Positions 11,057 through 48,879 of a DNA stretch of 64,000 nucleotides are shown piece by piece (position 1 is the first letter of the stretch; each line of letters starts with the position of its first letter). The position numbers and the translations under genes were made by a program. Source of the stretch: an uncultured Cohaesibacter sp. (GTDB taxonomy: Bacteria > Pseudomonadota > Alphaproteobacteria > Rhizobiales > Cohaesibacteraceae); contig NZ_OY761553.1 of NCBI RefSeq assembly GCF_963664735.1, positions 4,399,001 to 4,463,000 of the forward strand, read 5' to 3'. The notes under the pieces were generated by a model. The model had not been told where the DNA came from. It saw only the letters and a program-made list of their open reading frames with translations, and did not search any database.

Positions 11057-11253
11057 GATTTATTCTCTTTACACCAAGTAAAGTCGTTCATACTAAAGTC
11101 GCAAAATATTTATAAACAGATGCCCTGAGAATTGGCTCAAGTTTGAATGTTTGTGCGCATGGCTTCAGCTTAAATTAACGCTTTGCCCTGAGACTAAGGC
11201 TGAATAACTGTCTTTACAGGACTGGTTTCCGCCAAGAATCAGGGTTTTAAGCC

Positions 11254-14070
11254 ATGGATGATCTTTTACGTGAATTTATCGAGGAAACAAATGAAAGCCT
11301 TGACGTTGTAGACGTTGAGCTTGTCAAGTTTGAGCAAGAGCCAAACAACGCTCAGATTCTCGATAATATCTTTCGGCTCGTACATACTATCAAGGGTACT
11401 TGCGGTTTCTTGGGGCTCCCAAGACTTGAAAGTCTCGCACATGCTGCTGAGACACTGATGGGTAAATTCAGGGATGGCGCACCGGTTACCGGTGAGGCTG
11501 TTTCGATTATCTTGGTATCACTTGATCGAATCAAGGAGATTGTCGCAGAGCTGGAAGCAAACGAGGCGGAACCCGAAGGCTCTGATGATGACCTGATCGA
11601 TCAATTGGACCGATTGTCTGGTATTGGTAAATATGCCGGAATGGGCACTTCTGTAATGGATCAGGCTGGCGGAGACGCTGAGCCTGAAAAGGCAGAAGCA
11701 GAGCCGGTCGCCGAGGAAAAAACCGAGGCAGAGGCCACCCATGAAATATATCAGGTCCTGGAGCGCGAGCTGAAAGCCGGTGAAGTCTCTCTTGACGAGC
11801 TGGAACGAGCCTTCCGCGAAGCTGATGGTCCTGACGGGTTCGACGTAACCCAGAGCGCGAAGGAAGCTGCGGAAGCCGCGATTGCAGATGCTGCCGCTCA
11901 GAAACGTCTTGGCAAAACGCCAGCTACCAAGGCACCTGCTGCAAAAGCGCCTGTTGCGAAGAAAAAAGAAGAACCCAAGGCAGAAAAAGAAGTCAAATCT
12001 GGCGGTGGTGCCCATCAGTCCATTCGTGTGAATGTCGAAACTCTCGAACATCTCATGACCATGGTTTCCGAGCTTGTTCTTACCCGAAACCAGCTGCTCG
12101 AAATCGTACGCCGTCATGAAGATTCTGAATTCAAGGTGCCTTTGCAGCGTCTGTCCAATGTGACTGTTGAACTGCAGGAAGGCGTCATGAAGACCCGCAT
12201 GCAGCCGATTGGTAACGCATGGCAGAAGCTTCCTCGTATTGTTCGCGACCTTGCCAACGACCTTCACAAGGAAATCGATCTGGTCATGATCGGTCAGGAT
12301 ACCGAGCTTGACCGTCAGGTTCTTGAGCTGATCAAGGATCCATTGACGCACATGGTTCGCAACTCGGCTGACCATGGTCTGGAAAATGGTGAAGAACGTG
12401 TTGCCATGGGCAAGCCTGCCAAGGGTACAATCACCCTGTCGGCTTATCATGAAGGTGGCCACATCATCATCGATATTGAAGATGATGGACGAGGCATCAA
12501 CACCGAAAAAGTCAAGGAAAAGATCCTCAAGAATGAACTTGCGACTGAAGCAGAAATCGAGAAGATGTCTGAACAGCAGATCAACAAGTTCATTTTTGCT
12601 GCAGGCTTCTCGACCGCTGAAAAGGTTACGAACGTTTCCGGTCGTGGCGTCGGCATGGATGTTGTTCGCAACAACATCGAGGTTATTGGTGGTTCGGTCG
12701 ACCTGAAGTCCATTCCGGGCAAGGGCTCAATCTTCTCCATCAAAATTCCTCTGACATTGGCCATCGTCTCCTCGCTGCTTGTCGAAGCATCTGGTGATCG
12801 CTTTGCTATTCCTCAGTTGAGCGTTGTCGAATTGGTGCGTGTTCAGAATAACTCAGAGCACAAGATCGAACGCATCAAAGACACTCCGGTGCTGCGGTTA
12901 CGTAACAAGCTGCTGCCTCTGATCCATTTGAGCAATCTGCTAGGTATCGACCATAGAGGCGAAACCAACGACATTGAGCTTGATGATAATGGCTTCATCG
13001 TGGTCATGCAGGTTGGTGCCCAGACCTTTGGTGTTGTTGTTGACGCGGTGTTCCATACCGAAGAAATCGTTGTAAAACCGATGGCTTCTATGTTGCGTCA
13101 CCTGACCATGTTCTCCGGGAATACCATACTGGGTGATGGTTCCGTGATCATGATCCTTGATCCTAACGGCGTTGCTCAGGCCTTTGGTAGCCATGTTGGA
13201 ACAGATGTTGAGGCAAGCACGAAAGAGGCAGAAAAAGAGGCCCTTCCGGAAGAGCAGAACACGGTTTCCCTGCTTATTTTCCGCGCAGGGTCCCCAGAGC
13301 CAAAAGCCGTGCCGCTTTCTCTCGTCACGCGTTTGGAAGAATTCGACATCGAGCAGATCGAATTCTCGAATGGCCGAGACATGGTGCAGTATCGTGGCAG
13401 CCTGATGCCGCTTGTTCAGGTCAATGACTTTGTACAACGGCGCACCGAGGGCTCACAGCCAATGCTGGTCTTCTCGGATGCTGGTCGCTCCATGGGGCTG
13501 GTCGTTGACGAGATTGTCGACATCGTGGATGAACAGCTCAACATTGAGGTGTCCTCTGAAGTGCCTGGCATACTGGGTACTGCTGTCATCAAAGGCAGGG
13601 CAACCGAGATTATCGATGTTGGCCACTTCTTGCCGCAAGCCTTCGAGGACTGGTTCCATCGTAAGGAAATGGAAGAGGAAGACATCCTGAACAAGAAACT
13701 GTTGTTTGTTGATGATTCAAGTTTCTTCCGCAATATGCTGGGGCCAGTGCTGAAAGCTGCAGGATATGAAGTAACGATCTGTTCTGCTGGTTCTGAAGCT
13801 CTGTCTGTTCTTGAGCGTGATCCAAGCTACGAAATCGTGGTGTCTGACATCGAAATGCCTGAAATGAATGGCTTCGAGCTTTGCGAGGCGATCCGTCGCC
13901 ATCCGGCAACACGCGATATTCCGATTATTGCGCTGTCTTCGTTGTGCACTCCGGCAGCTATCGAAAGAGGTCGCAAGGCTGGCTTTAATGACTATGTGGC
14001 CAAGTTTGATCGCCCTGGTCTTATTGCTTCTCTTAAGGAACAACGTATTGAATTGGGGGTTGCAGCATGA
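11254..14070 (+). CDS. cheA: Chemotaxis histidine kinase CheA, hybrid with second CheW-like domain and C-terminal receiver
   Basis: 938 residues. An N-terminal HPt domain (His44 in RLVHTIKGTCGF) is followed by an acidic and Ala/Lys-rich linker (about 130-250), the dimerisation helix pair, and an ATPase domain with N-box HMVRNSADHGLE, G1 DIEDDGRGI and GRGVGMDVV. A CheW-like domain, a second degenerate CheW-like segment (about 665-800) and a CheY-type receiver starting near residue 814 complete it (DDSS, phospho-Asp near 865 in SDIEMPEMNG, Lys in YVAKFD). It controls flagellar rotation through CheY with CheW and receptors at the pole. The attached receiver probably acts as a phosphate sink or adaptation element. 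It is first gene of cheA-W-Y-B-R and overlaps cheW by ATGA. Confidence 0.96.
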   Translation: MDDLLREFIEETNESLDVVDVELVKFEQEPNNAQILDNIFRLVHTIKGTCGFLGLPRLESLAHAAETLMGKFRDGAPVTGEAVSIILVSLDRIKEIVAELEANEAEPEGSDDDLIDQLDRLSGIGKYAGMGTSVMDQAGGDAEPEKAEAEPVAEEKTEAEATHEIYQVLERELKAGEVSLDELERAFREADGPDGFDVTQSAKEAAEAAIADAAAQKRLGKTPATKAPAAKAPVAKKKEEPKAEKEVKSGGGAHQSIRVNVETLEHLMTMVSELVLTRNQLLEIVRRHEDSEFKVPLQRLSNVTVELQEGVMKTRMQPIGNAWQKLPRIVRDLANDLHKEIDLVMIGQDTELDRQVLELIKDPLTHMVRNSADHGLENGEERVAMGKPAKGTITLSAYHEGGHIIIDIEDDGRGINTEKVKEKILKNELATEAEIEKMSEQQINKFIFAAGFSTAEKVTNVSGRGVGMDVVRNNIEVIGGSVDLKSIPGKGSIFSIKIPLTLAIVSSLLVEASGDRFAIPQLSVVELVRVQNNSEHKIERIKDTPVLRLRNKLLPLIHLSNLLGIDHRGETNDIELDDNGFIVVMQVGAQTFGVVVDAVFHTEEIVVKPMASMLRHLTMFSGNTILGDGSVIMILDPNGVAQAFGSHVGTDVEASTKEAEKEALPEEQNTVSLLIFRAGSPEPKAVPLSLVTRLEEFDIEQIEFSNGRDMVQYRGSLMPLVQVNDFVQRRTEGSQPMLVFSDAGRSMGLVVDEIVDIVDEQLNIEVSSEVPGILGTAVIKGRATEIIDVGHFLPQAFEDWFHRKEMEEEDILNKKLLFVDDSSFFRNMLGPVLKAAGYEVTICSAGSEALSVLERDPSYEIVVSDIEMPEMNGFELCEAIRRHPATRDIPIIALSSLCTPAAIERGRKAGFNDYVAKFDRPGLIASLKEQRIELGVAA

Positions 14071-27726: not shown

Positions 27727-29367
27727 TCACGCTGCATCTTGAAGCCAAAGACGAATGATCTTGGCAGCTTCTTCTGGGTTGTCTTTTACCATGTCACCGA
27801 CTTTGATCAGGGTGTCAGCCTGGAGGGCACCTTGAAGCTGTGCATGCTCAATGGCCTGCAATGTCGGATGTTTCGGATCATCTTCACCATGTGGTGCAGG
27901 GATCAATTCGCCTGATTCTGTTTTGATCATCGGGGTGCCGTCCGGGCCAATTATGATGTCCAGATCATCCTTCTGATCTTCTGCTTTTTCGAACATGCGC
28001 TTCATCATCGGACGAACGACCATGAACAGAACGATAAGCATCATCAGGAACATTACGCCAAGTTCGGTAAAGCGCATGTAATCATCTTTGGTAAATGCGA
28101 AGAGCTCATTGCCTTCTTCGTCAAAGATGGTCTGTGGGCCTTCTGCGAATTGCAGGTTGATGACTTCAACCTTGTCGCCACGGGTCTGGTCATATCCGAC
28201 GGCAGAGCGAACAAGTGTTGCGATCTGCTCAAGCTCTTCTGGTGATCTTGGCGTGTAAACCAATTCGCCGTTTTCGTTCTTTTCGTAAGTTCCATCCACC
28301 AAAACAGCTACGGACAAGCGCTCGATCCGGCCACCCTGAACAACTTCGGTCGTTGTCTTGCGAGAAATCTCGTAGTTGACCAGTTCTTCGGTCGTTTCCG
28401 AATTTTCTTGTGTGCCGGCAGGCTGCCCGTTGGCGTTGGCGTCAGGCAGTTCGTTGCCAACCGTTACGCCATCATTGCTTTCTCTATCCTGGCTGTTGGC
28501 ATTTTCCGTGCGGGTCTGGGTAGACCGGACGACCTGACCATCCGGGTCGAACATGTCGGAGGTTTCGGTCACCTTGTTGAAGTTCATTTCGGCAGAGACT
28601 TCGATGCGCGCACGGCCCTGACCCACGACGGAAGAAACAATATCATCAACCTGATCGCGCAGGCGACTTTCCATCTGTACCTGACGTTCTTCCATATGGG
28701 CGGACATGTAGCTGTCATCGTTGCCGCGACCTGAAGCCAGAAGGCGCCCGCGCTCGTCAACGATGGTTACATTTTCCGGATCAAGACCTTCAACTGCTGA
28801 GCCGACCAGATGCTGAATTGCCTGAATCTGCGAAGAATTCAAATTGCCCTGCAGCTTGACTGCAATCGATGCTGTTGGCTGTTTCTGGTCTTTCTTGAAA
28901 AGTTCGCTCTTGGGCATGACCAGATGCACTCTTGCTTGCCGCACATTGCGGATGGTGCGGATGGAGCGAGAGAGTTCGCCTTCAAGGGCGCGAAGATGAT
29001 TGACGTTCTGAACAAAGCTGGTGGTGCCCAGCGTTTCGCTTTTGTCAAAGATTTCATATCCGACATTGCCGCCGGTCGGCAGGCCATTTTCTGCCAGCTG
29101 CATACGCAGCTTCAAGATGTCGGTCTTGGGGGCAAGAATCACTGCGCCTTCGTCGAGCACTTTGTGGCTGACATTCTGTGCTTCGAGCAGGCGGGTAATC
29201 TGTATGGAGTCTTCAAAGGAGAGGTCTGTATATAGTGGTGCCAGATCCGGTTCGGACATGCGCATCATGATAAATGCAAAGAAGCCGATCAAAACAGCCG
29301 TAACCACCCCCATCGCTGCGATGCGGGAGGGGCCAAGCGTTTTGAGAAAGTCGAAGAACCCGTTCAC
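27727..29367 (-). CDS. fliF: Flagellar MS-ring protein FliF
   Basis: 546 residues with two membrane helices (residues about 15-33 and 440-460) flanking a large periplasmic region: DLAPLYTDLSFEDSIQITRLLEAQN, ALEGELSRSIRTIRNVRQARVHLVMP and VTIVDERGRLLASG. The cytoplasmic tail ends with a FliG-binding helix (VKDNPEEAAKIIRLWLQDA). It nucleates basal-body assembly. First gene of the fliF-G-H-N-flbD-flhA operon and preceded by two perfect CtrA boxes. Confidence 0.96.
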   Translation of the reverse strand: MNGFFDFLKTLGPSRIAAMGVVTAVLIGFFAFIMMRMSEPDLAPLYTDLSFEDSIQITRLLEAQNVSHKVLDEGAVILAPKTDILKLRMQLAENGLPTGGNVGYEIFDKSETLGTTSFVQNVNHLRALEGELSRSIRTIRNVRQARVHLVMPKSELFKKDQKQPTASIAVKLQGNLNSSQIQAIQHLVGSAVEGLDPENVTIVDERGRLLASGRGNDDSYMSAHMEERQVQMESRLRDQVDDIVSSVVGQGRARIEVSAEMNFNKVTETSDMFDPDGQVVRSTQTRTENANSQDRESNDGVTVGNELPDANANGQPAGTQENSETTEELVNYEISRKTTTEVVQGGRIERLSVAVLVDGTYEKNENGELVYTPRSPEELEQIATLVRSAVGYDQTRGDKVEVINLQFAEGPQTIFDEEGNELFAFTKDDYMRFTELGVMFLMMLIVLFMVVRPMMKRMFEKAEDQKDDLDIIIGPDGTPMIKTESGELIPAPHGEDDPKHPTLQAIEHAQLQGALQADTLIKVGDMVKDNPEEAAKIIRLWLQDAA

Positions 29368-29433
29368 TCTGTTGCCTTTGTCATTCCGAATTTACTACAC
29401 CAAATCACTAGGCAATATTTTCCTAGGAGATAG

Positions 29434-38874: not shown

Positions 38875-39414
38875 ATGTTTTACGACGAAAGCAATTTCGG
38901 CCGGAAGCTTCTCCGCGCCGACCCGAAGCCTAATGGTGGGAAAAAGAAGCACAAGCACAAAAGATGGCAGATCGTTGACAAGGAGTTTCGGTGCGTGCAC
39001 TGCAAGCGGATGGTTTTTGTAACCTCCGAAATGGGTACGATTCATCGCAACCATTGTCCGCACTGTTTGCATTCCCTGCATGTGGATACCAAGCCGGGCA
39101 ACCGTGCTTCTGATTGCAGGGCGCGGATGGTGCCTGTTGGTTTGACTTACAAGCACAATGGCTACGACAAATATGGCAAGGAACGCAAGGGGGACATCAT
39201 GCTGGTTCACCTTTGTTCATCTTGTGGCAGTGTCAACATCAACCGTATTGCAGCCGATGACTCTTGTTGCGAGATACTTGATCTTTTTGAGCGTTCGCAA
39301 TTCATGCAAGAGGCTCAGCGCGCTCTGATCGAGCAAAAAGGCGTCTTGTTGCTTACATCCAGCGATGCTGATGCGCTTCAAACAGCCTTGTTTGGTCGAA
39401 GTTTCTCGCCTTGA
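38875..39414 (+). CDS. RNHCP-domain zinc-binding protein
   Basis: 179 residues. The segment FRCVHCKRMVFVTSEMGTIHRNHCPHCLHSLHVDTKPGNR contains the RNHCP motif with CxxC pairs typical of a zinc ribbon (RNHCP family). A second Cys pair (LCSSCGS) follows with DDSCCE. An N-terminal Lys/His-rich stretch (GGKKKHKHKRW) suggests nucleic-acid contact. Function unknown in all members I know. Convergent with the HerA-like gene. Confidence 0.85.
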   Translation: MFYDESNFGRKLLRADPKPNGGKKKHKHKRWQIVDKEFRCVHCKRMVFVTSEMGTIHRNHCPHCLHSLHVDTKPGNRASDCRARMVPVGLTYKHNGYDKYGKERKGDIMLVHLCSSCGSVNINRIAADDSCCEILDLFERSQFMQEAQRALIEQKGVLLLTSSDADALQTALFGRSFSP

Positions 39415-39429
39415 TGCAGGATCAACAGG

Positions 39430-39456
39430 CGGCCCGATGGACAATCTGTCGGGCCG
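39430..39456. terminator. Hairpin between convergent genes
   Basis: CGGCCCGA and TCGGGCCG form a perfect 8-bp stem with an 11-nt loop, followed on the plus strand by GATATTTTG; lies 16 bases past the RNHCP gene and 24 bases past the end of the HerA-like gene. Confidence 0.65.
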
Positions 39457-39479: not shown

Positions 39480-40964
39480 TTAATCCGGATTGCCCGGCTC
39501 TGTTTGTACGCCAAGGTCTTTGAGAGTAACGATGCGGTTGCCGCGCAGGTCATTGGCGCAGACCAGATAACCGCGTTCTTCCATGTAAGTGAGAAGGAAG
39601 CGAGCGCGGGAGGGTGAGCGGGTGCCATAGGCGGTTGCCAGTTCCAGATTGGTCGGGCAGGGCTTTTTGCCCAGAGCTGCCTTGGCAAGCAACAAATATA
39701 CGCCGCGCATGTCTTCGGGCAGTTGATCAGCGATCAGTCCTGCCTGCTTCCACTGATTCTCGTCGAGGGTTTCTTCCTTGGCATCCACGCCAGCGCGGGC
39801 AACAGCCAGTAGCTGCCGGAACTCTTGCAAGTCCGGCGTTGTCTTCAATGTCTTTTCAATGCGGCAGCGGACCTGAAAATCCTGATAGAGGACCGAGACC
39901 GGCTGATAGGCAGCTTCTGGATCATCCAGCAGATCTGTGAGAATTTTATGGAGAATCTCCTCCCGTTCCTCGGCACTTAGGCCGGGATCCAGGTCGAGCT
40001 GAGGCTCCGTCTCGCCGCCAAACTCCCTGTCCAGTTTACGCTCAGCCAACTGTTGCAGCACTTCTGCCGTGGTTGGGGGAGGAGGCGCCATGGCAGGCCT
40101 TGGGTCATCGTCTGATCCGGGCTTGAACAACAATTCATCGATATTGTCGTGTGGTACCTCCGGCAGGGGCATCAACTTGGGGCTGGAAGAGCGGGCTGAC
40201 GTTTCCACCGCGCCAATCGTGACAGTTTCCGAGCGTCGGTAAAGGGCTGGCCCAAGGGCGACGAACTGGCCTCTGTCTAGATTTCGGAAGGTCTCGGCCT
40301 GCCGACGCTCAAGCCCAAGCAAGTCGGCGGCGCGGGCCATGTCGATATCAAGAAAGGTGCGGCCCATCAGGAAGTTTGAGGCTTCGGCAGCCACGTTCTT
40401 GGCCAGCTTGGCAAGTCGCTGGGTGGCGATGATGCCTGCAAGGCCACGTTTACGGCCACGGCACATGAGGTTGGTCATGGCACCAAGGGACGAGCGGCGG
40501 GCTTCTTCGCTCACCTCGCCACCGGCAGCGGGGGCAAAGAGCTGGGCTTCATCGACGATGACAATAGCCGGATACCAATATTGCCGGTCGATATCGAACA
40601 GGCCATTGAGAAAGGCTGCGGCGGCTCGCATTTGCCGATCCGCGTCTAGCCCCTCAAGGTTGAGCACGGCGGATATGCGGTGCTGGCGCACACGGGCAGC
40701 AATCATCGTAAGGTCGGCTTCGGTGCCGACTGCATCAACCACGGCATGGCCGTATTTTTCGGCCAATGTGACGAAGTCACCTTCCGGATCTATGATGATC
40801 TGCTGGACCCATTTGGCGCTCTGTTCGAGGATGCGGCGCAAAAGGTGGGATTTGCCTGAACCGGAGTTCCCCTGCACCAAAAGGCGCGTTGCCAGCAGTT
40901 CCTCCAGATCCATTTGGGCTGGTTGGCCCAGTTTCATGGTCCCCAGATCAATGCTGACGGTCAT
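39480..40964 (-). CDS. HerA/FtsK-like ATP-binding protein (DUF87-type)
   Basis: About 495 residues. The N-terminal ATPase has Walker A VQGNSGSGKSHLLRRILE (residues about 27-43), Walker B AIVIVDEAQLFAPAAGGEVS and the sensor-like IIATQRLAKLAKNVAAEASN, as in HerA/VirB4-like DUF87 proteins. A proline-rich linker and a helical C-terminal half (winged-helix-like ATAYGTRSPSRARFLLTYMEERG) follow. Such ATPases move or sense DNA, or act as signal NTPases. ATG 40964 is chosen; a TTG at 41060 would almost touch the exonuclease gene. Last gene of the symporter-exonuclease array, so it may work with that nuclease. Confidence 0.8.
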   Translation of the reverse strand: MTVSIDLGTMKLGQPAQMDLEELLATRLLVQGNSGSGKSHLLRRILEQSAKWVQQIIIDPEGDFVTLAEKYGHAVVDAVGTEADLTMIAARVRQHRISAVLNLEGLDADRQMRAAAAFLNGLFDIDRQYWYPAIVIVDEAQLFAPAAGGEVSEEARRSSLGAMTNLMCRGRKRGLAGIIATQRLAKLAKNVAAEASNFLMGRTFLDIDMARAADLLGLERRQAETFRNLDRGQFVALGPALYRRSETVTIGAVETSARSSSPKLMPLPEVPHDNIDELLFKPGSDDDPRPAMAPPPPTTAEVLQQLAERKLDREFGGETEPQLDLDPGLSAEEREEILHKILTDLLDDPEAAYQPVSVLYQDFQVRCRIEKTLKTTPDLQEFRQLLAVARAGVDAKEETLDENQWKQAGLIADQLPEDMRGVYLLLAKAALGKKPCPTNLELATAYGTRSPSRARFLLTYMEERGYLVCANDLRGNRIVTLKDLGVQTEPGNPD

Positions 40965-41066
40965 CGCGGTATCGTTGTCCTGTAAGGAAAGGGAAAGAAC
41001 GGCGGCGAACTTTTCAGATTCGTGGCTCCAGATCAATAGAGTTTCGCAAGGTTGGGCCAAACAGGG

Positions 41067-43226
41067 TTAATAGCGGGCTTGCTGGCGGCGGATCGCTTCT
41101 GCTTTCTTTTCAGCTTCCACGGCATCTCGCAAGGTCTTGATGCCTGATGCTTCCAGCAGATCTATGAGGCAGAGCAGCACTTGTGCTGTTGCCAGAGAGT
41201 CGCCCAGTGCCGTGTGGCGCACCTTGGCCGGGATCTCTATTCCGAATTGCTCGGCCAGCGCATCCAGCGTCAGACTGCTGGACTGGCCTTGCAGATGGGC
41301 TGCCAAAAGTACAGTGTCCAGCACCGGATTGTTGAATTTTACGCCAACTTCGTCCTGCTTGAGCGACAGGAATTTCATATCGAACGCCGCATTGTGAGCG
41401 ACCAGCACTGCATCGCTGACAAAGCCATGAAAGCGGGGGAGCACCGACCCGATTGCCGGTGCTTCAGCGACCATCTCGTTGGTGATGTGGTGAATTTTTG
41501 TTGATGCCGGAGGGATGGCGCGTCCCGGATGAACATATTGATCGAAGATCTCTCCGTGCATGATGCGCCCATTGACGATCCGCACCCCTGCAATCGATAT
41601 GATCTCGTCGCCACCAGAAGGGTCAAGACCTGTGGTTTCGGTGTCAAATACCACATAATCAAGCTCTCTGAGCGGGCGGTCTTCCAAAGTTCCTAGATAT
41701 TGCCGTTCCATGAGGTCGAAGTCGTAAAATTCGAGCCGGTCGGACAATAGAAGTGTCTGTTCGTCCTGAGGAATGTTCGAATGGTGGTCGCGCGGCAAGG
41801 ATAGAGGAAGGCGCAGATAGGCGCTGCCGTCCGGCGCTGTGGCGCTCCAGAAATCGGATTTGTGCCGCTGCAGAACGTCGTGGCTTGTGATGTTGCCCAG
41901 GTCCGGGTCAAGGGGATCGTCAAGCCAGCCGTTTATGGCGGCGAGGCTGAGGGGGGCTCCATGCCAGTGAAGATCTATATAGATGTTGCTTTCTGCCTTT
42001 TCGGCACTCAGCTGGAAGGCACATGATCCGGTTATTTTTGCCACCTGCCTCAGAGCATATTCTACCAGCTCGACGATGGTGATGGAATCGCAATGAAGCC
42101 ACACCGGATCGCCAATGAATTCGCATGTGACATTAAGCTCTTCAGAGCTGTTGCGGCGCAAGACCGAGTTGAACAGGGAGGAGGAATAGACATCGCTCAT
42201 GGGCCATGCGCTTGTCAGCATTCTATGGGATTGCTTGTCATAGTCTTCTAGGCATTTTGATAGCCTTGTTGCCTCCTTGGCGATCATTGTCTCAAAGGTC
42301 TGGCGGGTCTCGGGTGACAGGCCATAGCCGCCAGCGAGCATTTCTGCCGAGGTAAGTAGATTAGCCGCCGGATGGCGCAACTCACTGAAGGCGCTTTGCA
42401 GGAGTTTATCACGCTCAACATTGTCGGCGAGTTGACGGGTCATGTCGTCGAAGGTGACGATAAAGCCGGAAGGCTTTTCTTTTTCTGTGTCCAGCAACAG
42501 GGTTACGCGGCCTTGCAAGGTGTGCTTGCCATCGGCTGTGGCGCAGATGACAAGTTGGCTGAGCCCCTCCTTGTGGTGCTTGTGACGTCCTTCTTCCAAG
42601 CGGTGCCCCAAACGCTCCATAGTATGGCGAAAAGGGGCGGCGGAGACGATGGAAAAGAGAGAGCGCCCGAGCCCGATATCTCCGGAAACATGCAGTATTT
42701 TCAATGCACGCTTGTTGTAAAGCATGATCTTGTTGTCGAGCGTGCAGATGAGAATGCCTTGCTCCAGATTGCTGATGACACTTTCAAGACGGGCGGTTTG
42801 TTTGTGGGTTTCTTTCGTTGCCCGGGCAATGCGAGCCTCTGTTTCGTCACGTGCTTCTGTCAGTGCTGCCGCTATTTCCCTGATTGCCGGATTGAGCAGA
42901 CCGAGATATTTGCCGGTTTCCCGATCCATCCCTCTGGACGCCCCGGCATGCACGAGGGATCTCACGTCTTTTGAAATATGCTCTATGGGCTGGGCAACAT
43001 TGATGTCGAATTTCTGCCAGACCCATCCTGTAACGAAGAGAATGCCAAATGAGGCAATGCCGCCAAACAGAACAAGATGCGGAGTGGCTTCCGGGCCGAT
43101 GCGCTGAAGCGCAAAATAGAGGCTTGCGGCGATGATGATGCATGCGCTGGCTGCGATCAGGGCGAAAAACAAAAAGATGCGCAGTCTCAGGCTGAGCTTT
43201 TCGATATTGGTTAGCTGTGGTGCCAT
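41067..43226 (-). CDS. Membrane PAS-pseudokinase fused to DEDDh 3'-5' exonuclease
   Basis: 719 residues. Two membrane helices (about 17-39, 50-69) are followed by a HAMP-like/coiled segment, a PAS-like domain (146-265) and a histidine-kinase-like module (270-478). The canonical phospho-His of the H-box is replaced: the line reads FSELRHPAANL, with Ser281 at the usual His position. The ATPase half lacks a clear N-box Asn and G-boxes. The C-terminus (520-690) is a complete DEDDh exonuclease: D528 and E530 in FDTETTGLD, D616 in AHNAAFDMKFL, H671 and D676 in RHTALGDSLAT, like DnaQ/PolC epsilon. It therefore looks like a membrane-tethered, signal-controlled nuclease or nucleotide binder. It is part of the symporter array; a receiver gene lies 31 bp upstream. 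Confidence 0.88.
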   Translation of the reverse strand: MAPQLTNIEKLSLRLRIFLFFALIAASACIIIAASLYFALQRIGPEATPHLVLFGGIASFGILFVTGWVWQKFDINVAQPIEHISKDVRSLVHAGASRGMDRETGKYLGLLNPAIREIAAALTEARDETEARIARATKETHKQTARLESVISNLEQGILICTLDNKIMLYNKRALKILHVSGDIGLGRSLFSIVSAAPFRHTMERLGHRLEEGRHKHHKEGLSQLVICATADGKHTLQGRVTLLLDTEKEKPSGFIVTFDDMTRQLADNVERDKLLQSAFSELRHPAANLLTSAEMLAGGYGLSPETRQTFETMIAKEATRLSKCLEDYDKQSHRMLTSAWPMSDVYSSSLFNSVLRRNSSEELNVTCEFIGDPVWLHCDSITIVELVEYALRQVAKITGSCAFQLSAEKAESNIYIDLHWHGAPLSLAAINGWLDDPLDPDLGNITSHDVLQRHKSDFWSATAPDGSAYLRLPLSLPRDHHSNIPQDEQTLLLSDRLEFYDFDLMERQYLGTLEDRPLRELDYVVFDTETTGLDPSGGDEIISIAGVRIVNGRIMHGEIFDQYVHPGRAIPPASTKIHHITNEMVAEAPAIGSVLPRFHGFVSDAVLVAHNAAFDMKFLSLKQDEVGVKFNNPVLDTVLLAAHLQGQSSSLTLDALAEQFGIEIPAKVRHTALGDSLATAQVLLCLIDLLEASGIKTLRDAVEAEKKAEAIRRQQARY

Positions 43227-43257
43227 GTGCGTCTCAACCCGCTTTTCCTTGGTCTGC

Positions 43258-43623
43258 CTACTTGAGAAGGTCCTTGATTGTTTGCGCCGCAGTACCCAGC
43301 GAGAAAGGCTTGGTCAGAGCGCCGTTCGCGCCGCATGCGAGGCCTTTTTCAAATTCGATTTGCCGTGTTGATGTGTTCATCATCACGATTTTGACATCGC
43401 TGTTTGTCGCCTCTTTGCGAATGGTCTGGCATATGTCATAGCCATCCCTGTCGGGAAGGGAAGTGTCCAGAAGGATCAGATCCGGGCAGGCAGTGTTAGT
43501 GCAAGCAAGGGCGTCATGGCCGGTATTTGCGGTTTTGACCTCATAGCCCTCCGCCTTCATGAGTTGCTCCAGCGCTAGAGCGATGGGCGGTTCATCATCC
43601 ACCACAAGTATCGATTTCGGCAT
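43258..43623 (-). CDS. Stand-alone receiver (CheY-like) protein
   Basis: 121 residues: DDEPP acidic pocket at residues 9-13, phospho-Asp in LILLDTSLPDRDGYD, and LTKPF Lys. There is no output domain. It sits between the small membrane protein and the pseudokinase-exonuclease with short gaps, so its natural partner is probably in this array. The kinase-like neighbour appears unable to phosphorylate itself, so the phosphate source is unclear. Confidence 0.9.
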   Translation of the reverse strand: MPKSILVVDDEPPIALALEQLMKAEGYEVKTANTGHDALACTNTACPDLILLDTSLPDRDGYDICQTIRKEATNSDVKIVMMNTSTRQIEFEKGLACGANGALTKPFSLGTAAQTIKDLLK

Positions 43624-43671
43624 GCTCTACTCCTTTGCAGGCCCTAGACGGCTGGTCTCAGAGGCAAGGGT

Positions 43672-44193
43672 TTAGCCATCGCATACGGCATGGAGCAATG
43701 GTGCCTCGGTCTTCAGCTCGAACCATTTGGCCTTGGCATTTATGTCTTGCATGGTGGGAGGCATGTCGCCCTGCCAGTCGGCGCGACGCTTTGCCGAGCA
43801 GTCGACCAATTGCCAGATGGAGCTGGTCGGGCCGTCTTTTTCCGCCTGAAACAGTTCCGCCAGTTTGATGCCTGGTAAGTCCTCATTGCTTTTCATGCTG
43901 GTCTTGTTCAGGGCCAGAAAGCGATCTGTGCGCGGAATGACGAAGGACAGGGGCTGCAAAAGGCTTTTGCCCTGTGCGGTTTGCAACACCACAACATTGT
44001 CACCGAAGTCAGCGGTGGCGCGGGAATACCAGCCATAGTCCAGCACGATCTGCAGGGCTATCATGGCAATCCCGGCTGAGATCGGGATGGCTCCCTTTGG
44101 TCTGGGACGGCGAAGGATAAATTTGTAGAAAACGACAGCGGCTCCGGCAGCTCCAATTCCGGCGATGAAAGTTCCCAGTAGAATGAACAACAT
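43672..44193 (-). CDS. Small membrane protein of unknown function
   Basis: 173 residues, two N-terminal membrane helices (LFILLGTFIAGIGAAGAAVV and the AIPISAGIAMIALQIVLD segment) then a ~110-residue domain, probably periplasmic, ending in a Cys near the C-terminus (HAVCDG) and with another Cys in QLVDCSAKRR. I do not recognise a family. It lies between the DUF294 gene (168 bp upstream) and the receiver gene (48 bp downstream), so it belongs to the symporter array by position. Confidence 0.7.
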   Translation of the reverse strand: MLFILLGTFIAGIGAAGAAVVFYKFILRRPRPKGAIPISAGIAMIALQIVLDYGWYSRATADFGDNVVVLQTAQGKSLLQPLSFVIPRTDRFLALNKTSMKSNEDLPGIKLAELFQAEKDGPTSSIWQLVDCSAKRRADWQGDMPPTMQDINAKAKWFELKTEAPLLHAVCDG

Positions 44194-44361
44194 ACGATAG
44201 GTTCCTTAGGGTTTGGCTGGCGAATTGATCTGGCCAAGAGGGGCTTTTCCTGAAGGGCAACCCAGCCGAAGTCGATTGACAACTTGTCGCACGGATTGCC
44301 CGTCTCTGATAAGACAGCATTTCGTAGGTCGCCCAATGGCTTAGGTCTGGTGGCTAGGGGG

Positions 44362-46203
44362 CTAGATATTGGCTCCCTGCGTGTGACCGAGCGCCGACTG
44401 TTGGGTTTTGATCATGATGAAAGCATCCTTGAGATGGTTTCGCTCCAATTCACTCAGCGTGGCCGGTGCCAGAAAATTGTCCGGCTTCCTGCCTTCCCTG
44501 ATTTGGCGGGCCTGATGCTCAAGCCTCATGGTCGCGATCAGGTCGTAAGCGTCTATGAGGTCTTGTGCGCCGGAGCGGCTCAGGGTGCCATTGTCTTTGG
44601 CTTGAATGAGGCGTTCGCGGGTGTTGGCCGCCGTGATGGCGCCTTGCAGGGCATAGGCGCGGGCAAGGTCGACGATCGGTACGACGCCATTAAGCTTGAG
44701 ATCAACCGTATCCTTGTGTTCCCCCTTCTTGATCAGCGCAAAGCCGCGGAAGAAACTGAGTGGGGGCGTGTGGCTGAGCGAATTCGAGATCATGTGCGCA
44801 CGGAAGATGCTGTTCTTTTTGGCTTTCTCCAGCGTCTCTTGATAGAGGCCGGAAAAGAGAGCCTTCTCTCCGACGATGGGCCTGAGATCAAACATGACAC
44901 TGGCGAGCATCTGGGCCATGGGGTCCGGTTTGTCGATCCATTTGTCGAAATAGCTGCGCCAAATGGAAACAGGCTGTCGCCATCGTGGATTGGTTGCCAT
45001 CATGTCGCCGGGGCAATAGTAGAAGCCTGCCGCATCAAGGCCATCGGATACGAATTGGGCGAAGTCCTCGAAATAGTCTCCGTGTTCTTCTTGGTTGTAG
45101 CTGTCATCGAGAATGATGCAATTGTCCTGATCGGATACGCCGGTTTGCTCTTGCCGGCCTTGCGAGCCGCAGGCAAGCCAGAGATAGGGTACGGGAGCGG
45201 GGCCGAATTTCTGCTCGGCCATTTGCACCAATCGGCGGGTAAGGCTGTCGGTGACATTGGTTACGATGCGGCCGATATTATGGGCATCGACGCCGGAGCC
45301 GACGAGCTGGGCCAGCATTTGCGGCACCTTCCCGACAATGGCTGCGAGGCTTTGGAAATCATCTTGCCGTTGCAGATCGCGAATGATGAATGGTGCAGAT
45401 ACCGCTTGCCGATGGACCAGATTGGTGTTGGTTAGGATGCCTACAAGCTTGCCTTCCTCGACCACGGGCAAGTGGGTGTGGGTGCGCTCCATCATGGAGA
45501 GGAGGGCGTCAAAGCCCAGAGCATCGGGGCTGAGCGAGAAGGGATTTTCTGTCATGATCGAGCGGACCGGCGCTTCAAGACTGCGCCCGGCTGCGACGAT
45601 CCTATGGGCCATGTCGCCTGAGGTCAGAATACCGATCAGGCGCTCCTGTTCGGTGATCAGAAGACAGGAAATGTTGTTCTTCTGCATCAGTTTTGCCGCT
45701 TCAATCGCCGTTGTCTCAGGGGCGATGGTAATCGGGTTGGGCGTCATCAATTCGCCAATGGTGATCGAGATGAGATCGGAGGTCGAGTCGCTCTGGCCTG
45801 AAGATTGAGACCGTTTGACGATCGAGCTGTCAAAGTAGGCGTGAAATGACGGAATATCCTGGGTCAACTCCAGAAAATCAGCCTTGGGGATGATGAACAG
45901 GGTGCTGTCCTGACTTGCGACAGCCTTGTTGGGGGCGTTGCCGTCGCTGAGCATGGCTCTTTCGCCAAAACAATTGCCAACCGTGAGATGAAGAAGCAAG
46001 GTGCCTTCAGGCGTGATGAGATCCACTTCACCGGACTGGATCAGATAGAGGCCTTCGACTTTCTGGCCTACGGACAGAATTGCCTCGCCTTCGCGAACCG
46101 CAATTTCCACGCTCCTTTTAGCGAGATCTTCAAGGCGATCCATTTCCAGCAGATCAAACGGATGTCTGTGGCTGGCGAAGTCTGTGAAATCTGACATGCT
46201 CAT
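44362..46203 (-). CDS. cNMP-binding/CBS/DUF294 nucleotidyltransferase-like protein
   Basis: About 613 residues. A cyclic-nucleotide-binding-like domain (15-125; GNCFGERAML at its phosphate cassette), two CBS domains (150-265) and a DUF294 nucleotidyltransferase with GSQGRQEQTGVSDQDN at 346-361 followed by the DUF294 C-terminal domain. The conserved Arg of the cassette appears replaced (APNKAVA), so cAMP may not bind normally. Such proteins resemble GlnD-type enzymes and sit next to acetate-like symporters in other proteobacteria; they are thought to sense nucleotides. ATG 46203 has GAGGGA upstream. A hairpin separates it from the symporter gene. Confidence 0.9.
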   Translation of the reverse strand: MSMSDFTDFASHRHPFDLLEMDRLEDLAKRSVEIAVREGEAILSVGQKVEGLYLIQSGEVDLITPEGTLLLHLTVGNCFGERAMLSDGNAPNKAVASQDSTLFIIPKADFLELTQDIPSFHAYFDSSIVKRSQSSGQSDSTSDLISITIGELMTPNPITIAPETTAIEAAKLMQKNNISCLLITEQERLIGILTSGDMAHRIVAAGRSLEAPVRSIMTENPFSLSPDALGFDALLSMMERTHTHLPVVEEGKLVGILTNTNLVHRQAVSAPFIIRDLQRQDDFQSLAAIVGKVPQMLAQLVGSGVDAHNIGRIVTNVTDSLTRRLVQMAEQKFGPAPVPYLWLACGSQGRQEQTGVSDQDNCIILDDSYNQEEHGDYFEDFAQFVSDGLDAAGFYYCPGDMMATNPRWRQPVSIWRSYFDKWIDKPDPMAQMLASVMFDLRPIVGEKALFSGLYQETLEKAKKNSIFRAHMISNSLSHTPPLSFFRGFALIKKGEHKDTVDLKLNGVVPIVDLARAYALQGAITAANTRERLIQAKDNGTLSRSGAQDLIDAYDLIATMRLEHQARQIREGRKPDNFLAPATLSELERNHLKDAFIMIKTQQSALGHTQGANI

Positions 46204-46233
46204 CGTCTTCCCTCTGGCTGCAGTAACAACAAA

Positions 46234-46260
46234 GATCCCGCCGTGGTGTGCAGCGGGATC
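46234..46260 (-). terminator. Hairpin between symporter and DUF294 genes (possible attenuator)
   Basis: On the minus strand GATCCCGC pairs perfectly with GCGGGATC around an 11-nt loop, then TTTGTTGTT. It lies in the 117-bp gap of the array and could reduce expression of the downstream regulatory genes relative to the symporter. Confidence 0.5.
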
Positions 46261-46320
46261 TCTCAACGTGTCTTGTCTCAGGTCACGAGGACCCCTCAGA
46301 GATCCCCGATTGCTACGATC

Positions 46321-48093
46321 CTAGTGATCGATGGCAGCGCCTGCGCCTTTTGGAACGCGGATGCTTTCAACCAGATCCTGAATCTCCTTCGGAGGCTCAG
46401 CGGACATGGCGGAAACAACGTAGGCAACCGCGAAGTTGATGATCGCGCCAACCGTGCCAAAGGCTTCTGGAGCGATGCCCAGGAAGTGGTTCGCAGTGGT
46501 GTTTGGCAGCATTGCCGTACCAGGAATGAAGAACCAGCCTTTATACATGAAGATGTAGAGCAAGGTTGACAGGATGCCAGCGAGCATGCCGAAGATCGCG
46601 CCCTTGGAGTTGATGCGTTTGGAGAAAATCCCCATCATCAGGGCAGGGAAAATCGAGGATGCTGCGAGACCGAAGGCCAGAGCAACCACCTGAGCGGCGA
46701 AGCCCGGAGGATTGAGGCCAAGGTAAGCGGCAATCGCAATGGCCACTGCCATGGCGATACGGGCATAGAGCAGTTCCTGTTTTTCGCTGATGTTCGGTGT
46801 GAAGGTGCCTTTCATCAAGTCGTGGGACACGGCTGAGGAAATGGCCATCAACAAACCGGCTGCAGTGGAGAGCGCGGCGGCAAGACCACCGGCTGCGACC
46901 AGCGCGATAACCCAGTTAGGCAGTTTGGCGATTTCCGGGTTGGCCAGAACCATGATGTCACGGTCAACGTCCAGTTCATTGCCTTTCCAGCCGAACGCTT
47001 CTGCTTTTGCCTGGAAATCGGCAGATTTGTCGTTGTAATACTGGATGCGGCCGTCACCGTTCTTGTCTTCGAATTTCAGAAGACCGGTGGTTTCCCAGTT
47101 CTTGAACCAGTCCGGGCGGTCTGCATAGGCCAGGTTGCCGTCTTCGGCGCCGATGGTGCCGGTCTGGATGGTGTCCATCAGATTGAGGCGAGCCATTGCG
47201 CCAACGCCAGGAGCGGTGGTGTAGAGGATCGCGATGAAGACCAGTGACCAACCAGCAGTCCAGCGTGCGTCGGAAACCTTAGGTACGGTGAAGAAGCGAA
47301 TGATAACATGTGGCAGGCCAGCCGTGCCGATCATCAGGGACATGGTATACATGAACATGTTGAGCGGGTTGGAGGTAAAGGCCGTATATTCGGCAAAGCC
47401 AAGGTCCGTTACCACCTGATCAAGCTTGGTGAGCAGAGGTGTGCCGGAAACGTGGTCAGAGAAGAGACCAACCTGTGGCAGGAAGTTGCCGGTCAGTTCC
47501 ATGGAAATGAAGATTGCCGGAATGGTGTAGGCAAGGATCAGAACAACATACTGGGCAATCTGAGTGTAGGTGATGCCTTTCATGCCACCCTGAACCGCAT
47601 AGAGGAACACGATCGCGGTGCCGATCAGGAGGCCCGTGGATGCGTCAACTTCCAAGAAACGTGAGAAAGCAACGCCGACGCCTTTCATCTGGCCGATAAC
47701 ATAGGTGATCGAGCAGATGATCAGACAGGCAACAGCCACGATGCGGGCGGTTGAGGAATAGAAGCGGTCACCGATGAATTCCGGCACGGTGAATTTGCCG
47801 AATTTGCGCAGATATGGTGCCAGCAGCATGGCCAGAAGAACGTAGCCACCGGTCCAGCCCATAAGGAATACAGATGCGCCATAGCCGTTGAAGGCGATGA
47901 GGCCAGCCATGGAGATGAAGGAGGCTGCCGACATCCAGTCAGCGGCCGTTGCCATGCCGTTGGCTACAGGATGAACGCCGCGGCCTGCAGCATAGAATTC
48001 ACCGGTCGAGCCGGCACGAGCCCAGAAGGCAATCCCGATGTAAAGCGCAAAGGACGCGCCCACAACGATGTAGGTAAGAGTTTGAAGATCCAT
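46321..48093 (-). CDS. Sodium:solute symporter, VC_2705 type
   Basis: 590 residues, about 13 membrane helices; SSS-family motifs FYAAGRGVHPVANGMATAADWMSAASFISMAG, GGYVLLAMLLAPYLRKFGKFTVPEFIGDR and AAALSTAAGLLMAISSAVSHDL. Immediately preceded by a DUF4212 gene, the rule for the VC_2705 subfamily, which are likely monocarboxylate (acetate-like) uptake systems. A soluble loop (residues 330-385) contains DKNGDGRIQYYN (343-354), an EF-hand-like metal loop lacking the usual final Glu. Likely cotransports a small carboxylate with Na+; substrate inferred only. Confidence 0.93.
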   Translation of the reverse strand: MDLQTLTYIVVGASFALYIGIAFWARAGSTGEFYAAGRGVHPVANGMATAADWMSAASFISMAGLIAFNGYGASVFLMGWTGGYVLLAMLLAPYLRKFGKFTVPEFIGDRFYSSTARIVAVACLIICSITYVIGQMKGVGVAFSRFLEVDASTGLLIGTAIVFLYAVQGGMKGITYTQIAQYVVLILAYTIPAIFISMELTGNFLPQVGLFSDHVSGTPLLTKLDQVVTDLGFAEYTAFTSNPLNMFMYTMSLMIGTAGLPHVIIRFFTVPKVSDARWTAGWSLVFIAILYTTAPGVGAMARLNLMDTIQTGTIGAEDGNLAYADRPDWFKNWETTGLLKFEDKNGDGRIQYYNDKSADFQAKAEAFGWKGNELDVDRDIMVLANPEIAKLPNWVIALVAAGGLAAALSTAAGLLMAISSAVSHDLMKGTFTPNISEKQELLYARIAMAVAIAIAAYLGLNPPGFAAQVVALAFGLAASSIFPALMMGIFSKRINSKGAIFGMLAGILSTLLYIFMYKGWFFIPGTAMLPNTTANHFLGIAPEAFGTVGAIINFAVAYVVSAMSAEPPKEIQDLVESIRVPKGAGAAIDH

Positions 48094-48114
48094 AGTTCTT
48101 GCTCCCCGCGTTCC

Positions 48115-48375
48115 TTATTCTTCAACGCCATATTTCTTGTCGATCGCATTCATGCGGATCGCATAGAAGAAGATGAGTCCCAGGAAGACCCAGATAGAAC
48201 CCTGCTGGGCAAACCAGAATCCCAGATCGGACCCGCCGACTGAAATTCCTGATAGTGCAGGGCGAAGAAGCAGGCCAAATCCGAAGGACGCGATGAACCA
48301 TACGACAAGGCAGATCGCAATCAGATTGAGGTTGGCTTTCCAGTAGGCATGTCCGGATTCATTGTTCTCGGTCAT
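48115..48375 (-). CDS. DUF4212 small subunit of the symporter
   Basis: 86 residues with two membrane helices (LNLIAICLVVWFIASFGFGLLL; the FWFAQQGSIWVFLGLIFFYA segment) and a HAYWKANL entry, the hallmark of DUF4212 proteins always paired with VC_2705-type symporters. ATG 48375 has GGGGGA five bases upstream; an ATG at 48387 lacks that spacing. First gene of the seven-gene array. Confidence 0.92.
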   Translation of the reverse strand: MTENNESGHAYWKANLNLIAICLVVWFIASFGFGLLLRPALSGISVGGSDLGFWFAQQGSIWVFLGLIFFYAIRMNAIDKKYGVEE

Positions 48376-48879
48376 ATTTCCCCCCATGGTGCTGAACCGC
48401 GCGGCGGTTCATATTCCATTCTGAAAGGTCTGTTTTGGACGGCTATGTCTTTTTGGCGAGGTTCCTCATCTGCACTGCGACATTTTTTTACCGACCTCTT
48501 ACAAGACCATGTGAGTTGTAAGATACAGATAACCTGAATATAGGCATCTATCCTTGCAGTGATGTAAAATGAGAGGCGTGATTAATTCAATTAATGTTTC
48601 GTATAATTCCTTTATCCTTTAGTCGCTTGATGTGTAAAATGTATTTATACTCAAATGTTGGGTTGTGGCTGTGAGTTTGACTGTGAATTTTACTTTAGTT
48701 TTATTTGGAAGAAAGTATGATTTCTCTCGTGTGTTTTGCATCTGCGAAATCTGTTTGAAGAGGAATTGGTGCGTTGCACAATGCGTACGTAGCGTTTGAT
48801 TTTGTGCGGTCTGAGACAAACAAGACTGGCCAGGTGGGGCGGTCTTGCATTAAAGGAGATTGACCTTTGTCTTGCCCTC
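48376..48879. promoter_or_regulatory. 504-bp divergent control region (DUF4212-symporter array / rluA)
   Basis: AT-rich with no recognised gene. An inverted repeat TCTTACAA-N11-TTGTAAGA (48497-48523) lies about 125 bp before the DUF4212 gene, a plausible operator. Otherwise nothing specific was seen. Confidence 0.5.
48497..48523. promoter_or_regulatory. Inverted repeat upstream of symporter array
   Basis: TCTTACAA and TTGTAAGA are perfectly complementary, 11 bases apart. Size suits a dimeric regulator site. Confidence 0.4.

Follow-up and report, generated by a model that had tools for sequence, protein, structure and literature searches.

A membrane-anchored DEDDh exonuclease with a predicted histidine-kinase-like centre and a partner receiver in a symporter/DUF294 module of an uncultured Cohaesibacter

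The known outputs of bacterial sensor kinases and receivers are mostly transcription factors, cyclases and further kinases. In Pseudomonas putida, an RNase_T gene, pp_0353, shares an operon with a CBS-domain gene and ErdR binds there; the corresponding report states that deletion of pp_0353 delays growth on pyruvate, that mxtR and erdR deletions do likewise and that an actP-I mutant grows worse, and its authors speculate on mRNA decay as the role of pp_0353 (PMC9927547). In DivL of Caulobacter, according to another report, the R553A, T557N, Y562A and H579E substitutions lower DivK~P binding, and Y550 lies over the phosphotransfer site (PMC4211667). Here we analyze a locus related to both systems, found in a 64,000-nucleotide stretch of DNA (the window) from an uncultured Cohaesibacter sp. 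(contig NZ_OY761553.1, positions 4,399,001 to 4,463,000), whose genome is a single-contig assembly of 4,942,407 bases. An earlier note on the window had described an array of seven genes; the list of open reading frames (ORFs), Pfam and NCBIfam bear out all seven and their domains, on the minus strand from 39480 to 48387 (Table 1). The genes are real, but they probably do not make up one joint machine. Once a HerA-like ATPase gene is set aside, what remains is best read as a variant of a known module comprising a symporter, its DUF4212 subunit, a DUF294 protein and a DEDDh exonuclease. Within this carboxylate-symporter module, we propose, with a probability of about 0.5, that the exonuclease is gated through the docking of a stand-alone receiver on a DivL-like pseudokinase. 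A search of the open-licence literature by title and abstract opening found no published pseudokinase-exonuclease or DUF4212-exonuclease system.

The exonuclease protein was modelled with AlphaFold (mean pLDDT 84, pTM 0.47, pLDDT below 50 at residues 484-507) as a long membrane hairpin followed by a PAS domain, a two-helix hairpin, an alpha/beta domain and the exonuclease. In Foldseek searches the centre matched WalK, 4i5s, ThkA-TrrA and DivL (4q20), with kinase matches reaching an E-value of 7e-21, and the C-terminus matched PolC, DnaQ and DinG. Pfam, searched at E 0.1, returned no kinase domain and weak PAS matches, while NCBIfam kinase models matched residues 63-399 below cut-off; the predicted histidine-kinase fold of the centre thus stands on the AlphaFold model and the Foldseek matches. 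Kinase chemistry appears to have been lost. Indeed, none of 121 DHp-bearing members has the phospho-acceptor His at the H-box, the position being mostly Glu (Ser in the window), and neither the N-box Asn nor the DxGxG motif was present in the alignment columns inspected for the CA-like domain. By their residues, the exonuclease domains are predicted to be catalytically intact: all five DEDDh residues are invariant in 53/53 aligned members. The RPEFYDF segment that precedes the exonuclease is also nearly invariant (D502 and F503 in 53/53), and five short forms of the protein carry RPxxxDF (four) or RPLVFNF (one). Among the best 80 of 587 stretches, the closest named relatives of the protein come from two Cohaesibacter metagenome-assembled genomes (MAGs), at 67% identity.

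Relatives of the locus were sampled in several ways. The 80 named loci are the best 80 of the 587 confirmed stretches retrieved with the window exonuclease protein; the 57 phylum loci are the strong new rows of a phylum search plus seven weaker ones taken because their frames were long or for their surroundings; other weak rows, with frames of DnaQ size, were left out. Because of the way they were picked, these loci do not amount to random samples, and counts over them apply to the family surrounding the window. All reading frames were searched with home-made profiles, since longest-ORF calling mixed in antisense frames.

A receiver gene precedes the exonuclease domain on the same strand, no more than 3 kb away, in 62/80 named loci (64/80 if two with a receiver elsewhere in the cassette are included), 12/19 order loci and 31/57 phylum loci. 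The receiver that the earlier note had placed in the array therefore regularly accompanies the long exonuclease protein. A table of 153 loci (157 before removal of two duplicates and of two loci truncated at contig ends) holds 105 with both a DHp-like hairpin and a receiver, 14 with the hairpin alone, one with the receiver alone and 33 with neither; the Fisher p of 3e-21 obtained from locus counts ignores relatedness and was not used. A gene for an SSS-type kinase lies within 9 kb in 46/80 named loci. Positions that could serve docking are conserved on both partners. DivL R553 stands at H+3, and the equivalent residue 284 is Arg in 104/105 receiver-linked members; in 106 receivers, I14 is found in 99, L18 in 104, L21 in 102 and P106 and F107 in all, the equivalence of these positions to the DivK contact patch having been set by matching residue numbers by eye.

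Two further observations concern the surroundings of the exonuclease gene in relatives. At locus L149 of the genus mate G119 (C1:1580000-1596000), a second receiver gene and then a shortened copy of the exonuclease protein, a 359-aa frame matching residues 5-279, lie at ~8.6-10.1 kb. In L009, L010, L012, L015 and L017, a divergent ABC-F-like gene lies close upstream of the exonuclease gene, its product in L009 having two ABC domains and ABC_tran_Xtn by Pfam.

The window encodes the symporter, the DUF294 protein and the DEDDh exonuclease together, and the VC_2705-type symporter and DUF4212 genes adjoin, both scoring above their model cut-offs. How often such genes recur was examined in 40 VC_2705 loci, the odd-numbered rows among the first 89 of a symporter search that were not already in the other sets; as the sample covers these upper rows, it leans to best-scoring symporters. 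By profile search, DUF4212 was found in 40/40, DUF294 in 30/40 and an exonuclease match in 25/40 (above 60 bits for 20 of the 25, whose ORFs span 211-417 aa). An SSS-type kinase scoring 500 bits or more was found in 20/40, and the family of the 173-aa protein in 11/40. DUF294 lies within 9 kb in 54/57 phylum loci, five of which have it fused to the exonuclease. The conserved neighbourhood that the earlier note had named (DUF4212-symporter pair, DUF294, exonuclease) is borne out by this recurrence, but its Pseudomonas example, PA3232-PA3235, is not: PA3234 is described as ActP-like and 80% identical to Escherichia coli ActP (PMC9765439). On that description, the Pseudomonas genes make up an analogous ActP cluster and not a DUF4212/VC_2705 pair.

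Across loci, the exonuclease comes in four dressings. It is found stand-alone, adjoining DUF294; N-terminal to CBS-CBS-DUF294 in one protein, in genomes of the same order (L245-L249, Pfam-checked for L245); as a transmembrane-PAS-exonuclease protein of ~470 aa without the kinase-like part, in operons that run DUF4212, symporter, DUF294, 173-aa protein, exonuclease and often have an acetate-CoA ligase gene upstream; and as the long form. The latter has two settings, the symporter operon or a cassette made of a receiver, the exonuclease protein, a small two-helix protein and an SSS-kinase, and both settings lie back to back in two Hyphomicrobiaceae MAGs (L005, L006). AMP-ligase matches above 500 bits occur in 27/57 phylum loci; six of the seven such genes checked, taken from all sets, pass the acetate-CoA ligase cut-off, that of L005 being a malonyl-CoA synthase.

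The closeness of exonuclease and DUF294 raises another explanation, namely that the DEDDh domain is no nucleic-acid nuclease and strips nucleotidyl groups added by the DUF294 enzyme, the two forming a writer-eraser pair on the symporter or another target. The two are one protein in five loci and adjoin in most others, and one report groups DUF294_C with GlnD/GlnE-type transferases (PMC3710099). The GSxGR...DxD motif, searched as one pattern, is kept in 100/121 DUF294 members, but the remaining 21 miss it. The exonuclease domain is, moreover, closest to PolC/DnaQ exonucleases, and the exonuclease parts of the DUF294 fusions are distant, on long branches of the tree. We know of no DEDDh protein de-nucleotidylase, which counts against this explanation, and we hold it to be unlikely.

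The 173-aa protein, noted earlier as unknown, matched no family in Pfam or NCBIfam and recurs in 46/157 loci; its gene stands directly behind a symporter gene in 10/11 of the VC_2705 loci that carry the family. In this way a membrane family that Pfam and NCBIfam do not cover gains a home beside the symporter. Its model is confident (pLDDT 92), C132 and C171 are invariant in 25 aligned members, and a positive loop between the two helices suggests that the beta domain lies outside the cytoplasm. The best PDB matches of its fold, to Haemophilus influenzae protein E (E 0.012, TM-score 0.30-0.37 by query length), are too weak to assign it a relative.

The earlier note counted the HerA-like ATPase as part of the system, and the seven genes could accordingly form a unit in which this ATPase is the motor of the nuclease, after the pattern of HerA-NurA or HerA-effector defence pairs. 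The window HerA gene does start 102 bp behind the nuclease gene, and HerA and the long exonuclease gene lie within ~2.2 kb of each other in 8/8 genus genomes. The linkage stops at the genus boundary. Of 249 genomes of the order, 110 give a HerA match at E 0.001; 21 of these are partial or weak, which leaves 89 genomes with a full-length relative (53-100% identity), and 77 of the 89 have no long exonuclease protein. The latter is found on one contig in 17/249 genomes (one cut by a contig end; two more have it only in pieces). Full-length HerA is present as well in twelve of the 17, eight of them in the genus and four outside (G041, G081, G217, G194); in the latter, the two genes are on different contigs or 1.7 Mb apart, hence together in 0/4. 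Within the limits of the flanks scanned, HerA is present in 2/80 named and 0/57 phylum loci. Even in the genus, the HerA-exonuclease gap is ~0.1 kb in three of nine loci and 1.1-2.1 kb in six, and an EamA transporter gene on the opposite strand lies in the wide gap in all five scanned (L001, L144-L147). No family keeps a constant position around HerA in the 20 loci of other genera, where the widest non-overlapping cluster covers 6/22 loci, at varying offsets. Being frequent in the order and near the long exonuclease gene only in this genus, the HerA gene looks incidental, and a seven-gene unit driven by it is very improbable.

The window HerA resembles HerA-type DUF87 ATPases in its DUF87 match and in weak PDB sequence matches to HerA; by comparison with HerA-type defence ATPases, no defence partner is seen beside it, and it scores 33.5 bits with the NCBIfam anti-phage HerA model against a cut-off of 800. 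Anti-phage defence was rejected because the context is metabolic: PADLOC HerA models gave at most 57 bits and mad8 50, and DEDDh (135 bits) and PDC-S48 (105 bits) matches were confined to the exonuclease part. On the other side of the HerA gene, an RNHCP zinc-ribbon protein is encoded convergently on the plus strand (38875-39414), with a 12-pair inverted repeat (39430-39456) between the two genes.

A single transcription unit for the seven genes is doubtful, as judged from hairpin scans and from gap measurements across the genus. A hairpin with a T-rich tail stands behind the symporter gene in 30/39 loci, including 9/9 in the genus, and in 139/1520 shuffled gaps (38 gaps x 40 mononucleotide shuffles); note that these 39 loci share ancestry and were chosen for having symporter and DUF294 genes paired on one strand. 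The array may therefore be split at this point too: the hairpin may end most symporter transcripts, with a lower read-through reaching the signalling genes. From symporter to HerA, the intergenic gaps are 123, 168, 48, 31 and 102 bp, under a start rule that sets the DUF294 start 6 bp inside the most likely one, 46203; the DUF4212-symporter gap, taken from ORF ends, is 21 bp. For HerA, the most likely start is 40964, corrected from 41060, L001 opening at the same MTVSI motif. The region scan gave 5 promoter-like sites against 5.2 expected and 14 terminator-like sites against 9.4 (standard deviation 2.9), and an Rfam scan of the window gave zero matches. A TGACCTG..CAA stretch recurs at ~46264-46300 of the window and in genus loci L142-L147, L001 and L002, and we take it to resemble FNR/FixK boxes. 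It precedes the hairpin or lies in one gap with it, and reads CCTTGATCAAGG in L146.

Several observations weigh against receiver docking and gating within this module. In the Foldseek matches to kinases, query TM-scores are low (0.16-0.27) and the rmsd is large. The 14 members that keep the DHp-like hairpin without a linked receiver score no worse for it (median 73 vs 75, p 0.45), so that decay of the hairpin was not seen among receiver-less members keeping it. The H+3 Arg is also found in 14/16 members without a linked receiver (two of the 16 being cut by contig ends) and alone proves nothing; furthermore, the window has Thr292/Ser293 where most members have Ala. On the exonuclease tree, in four supported pairs that differ in DHp the receiver follows in 3.6 and opposes in 0 (p 0.125), and in seven pairs that differ in the receiver DHp follows in 2.9 (p 0.25). 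This tree was built by a quick method from 150 domains, after dropping seven rows with fragmentary domain coordinates, and 32/145 of its inner branches are starred; with few independent changes and no significance, it is consistent with a receiver-pseudokinase link but does not prove it. The short transmembrane-PAS-exonuclease forms have neither receiver nor kinase-like part, hence receiver control is not essential. As for the module, the hairpin separates the symporter gene from the remaining genes, symporter and DUF294 genes were not found in the 18 kb examined at L148 of G119, and, in P. putida, deletion of pp_0354 reportedly caused no pyruvate defect (PMC9927547).

The window receiver itself keeps D9, D10, D53 and K105 but has N83 and A102 in place of the usual Thr/Ser and Tyr/Phe, i.e. 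both switch positions are changed, which sets it apart from canonical receivers. In 64 receivers with a linked SSS-kinase, D53, Y102 and K105 are found in 64/64 and Thr83 in 63/64. Among receivers lacking such a kinase, the 17 encoded with a 173-aa gene have S (9), N (4), T (3) or G (1) at position 83, and the 25 others T (20) or S (5). Asn83 occurs together with Ala or Ser at 102 in the window and its three nearest relatives, and no kinase gene is linked in this lineage; the receiver may therefore be a fixed subunit there, or under weak phospho-control by an unlinked kinase. Elsewhere in the window's genome, Pfam identifies an SSS hybrid kinase (SSF-PAS-HisKA-HATPase-receiver; 47% identity over residues 19-676 to that of L003) and, convergent with it, a receiver-GerE regulator, the best match of which is ErdR at 252 bits, below the cut-off of 390.

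These substitutions also suit a different explanation, in which receiver and pseudokinase are relics in this lineage and the nuclease is a PAS-gated or constitutive membrane enzyme, like the short forms of ~470 aa that are encoded in the same operon. Position 83 is neither Thr nor Ser in 5/42 receivers without a linked SSS-kinase and in 0/64 with one. Decay is, however, hard to see elsewhere: Asp53 and Lys105 are kept in 17/17 symporter-operon-type receivers and Thr/Ser at 83 in 12/17, and the receiver and exonuclease frames are open in genus loci L142-L148, L001 and L002, only the second copy in G119 being shortened. We regard relic status as possible, although doubtful.

We retain receiver docking on the pseudokinase as the preferred reading. 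From the domain content, the lost kinase residues, the intact nuclease residues, the recurrent partners and the conserved docking positions, all taken from sequence and model, we infer docking, gating, substrate, solute and a link to solute flux, which the earlier note supposed to be read by the membrane protein, as follows. The DUF4212 subunit and VC_2705 symporter would import a short monocarboxylate, as suggested by the symporter family and by the acetate-CoA ligase genes near relatives. The DUF294 protein, a putative nucleotidyltransferase that carries cNMP-type and CBS domains, has the DEDDh exonuclease as its regular partner. Here a PAS domain and a histidine-kinase-like dimer, presumably stripped of kinase chemistry, would link this exonuclease to its membrane anchor. 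The receiver encoded just upstream would dock on the DHp-like hairpin, as DivK~P does on DivL, and gate the nuclease; its phosphate would come in many relatives from the linked SSS-type histidine kinase, whereas in the window's lineage it could act as a fixed subunit or be weakly controlled. The nuclease could then trim RNA or remove a nucleotidyl mark, and carboxylate metabolism would be adjusted. A widespread family in which a receiver regularly partners a dead kinase that carries a catalytically intact exonuclease would represent a new kind of output, and would open to experiment the puzzling exonuclease and DUF294 genes found in acetate and pyruvate regulons. A more far-reaching view, which we consider speculative and improbable, is that of a receptor class in which a receiver on a dead histidine kinase switches a membrane DEDDh enzyme, the latter forming with the DUF294 nucleotidyltransferase a make-and-break pair for a nucleotidyl mark or a short nucleotide signal at a carboxylate symporter.

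The features of the array are collected in Table 1. Farther away in the window, Pfam identifies a CheA-type hybrid kinase (Hpt, CheW, receiver; 11251-14067) and a FliF M-ring protein (27730-29391), and the genes between and around them look chemotactic and flagellar by eye. Between 52001 and 58000, G+C content is 0.59-0.64, against 0.48-0.57 elsewhere (2-kb steps), and two long plus-strand ORFs (568 and 1170 aa) are found.

Table 1. Array genes and sub-features, in window coordinates.
Feature	Position	Strand	Basis or remark
DUF4212 small symporter subunit	48115..48387, start possibly 48375	-	TIGR03647, 107.9 bits (cut-off 26.05)
VC_2705-family sodium/solute symporter	46321..48093	-	TIGR03648, 841.5 bits (cut-off 320.75)
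Terminator-like hairpin, symporter/DUF294 gap	46231..46263	-	Terminator scan; weak T tract in window
cNMP-binding/CBS-CBS/DUF294/DUF294_C protein	44362..46203, ORF to 46266	-	Pfam; GSxGR...DxD nucleotidyltransferase motif
173-aa protein	43672..44193	-	No Pfam/NCBIfam match; two N-terminal helices, beta domain, two invariant cysteines
Stand-alone receiver	43258..43623	-	Response_reg, 87.9 bits
Membrane anchor (two-helix)-PAS-pseudo-histidine-kinase-DEDDh exonuclease, 719 aa	41067..43226	-	Pfam, NCBIfam, alignment, AlphaFold model, Foldseek
DHp-like helical hairpin, residues 263-339, Ser281 at H-box His position	42210..42440	-	Model helices, column counts
CA-like alpha/beta domain, residues 344-476	41799..42197	-	Model, Foldseek, alignment columns
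DEDDh exonuclease domain, residues 525-684 (D528, E530, D616, H671, D676)	41175..41654	-	RNase_T, 128.6 bits
HerA-like DUF87 ATPase, judged a neighbour outside the system	39480..40964	-	Pfam DUF87; linkage counts

How, then, does the system compare with those described? SSS/STAC histidine kinases (CrbS, RpuS, CbrA) are transporter-like sensor kinases of carboxylate control, and SSS-kinase genes accompany many relatives of the locus, whereas none is linked in the window. The Pseudomonas clusters PA3232-PA3235 and pp_0353/pp_0354, targets of MxtR/ErdR (= CrbS/CrbR), share with the window a CBS-domain protein and an RNase_T exonuclease, with a symporter nearby in P. aeruginosa and a carboxylate growth phenotype for pp_0353. 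Compared by description, they differ in that their symporter is of the ActP type and that the descriptions consulted mention no sensor fusion, receiver, pseudokinase or 173-aa protein. DivL, for its part, has the kinase CckA as its output, in trans. The exonuclease protein resembles DivL in its predicted histidine-kinase fold without a phospho-His, its PAS domain, its single-domain receiver partner and the Arg at H+3 (PMC4211667), and differs from it at the His position, which is Tyr in DivL and mostly Glu in this family. We have nevertheless not filed it as a DivL, because its output domain is a nuclease, carried in cis.

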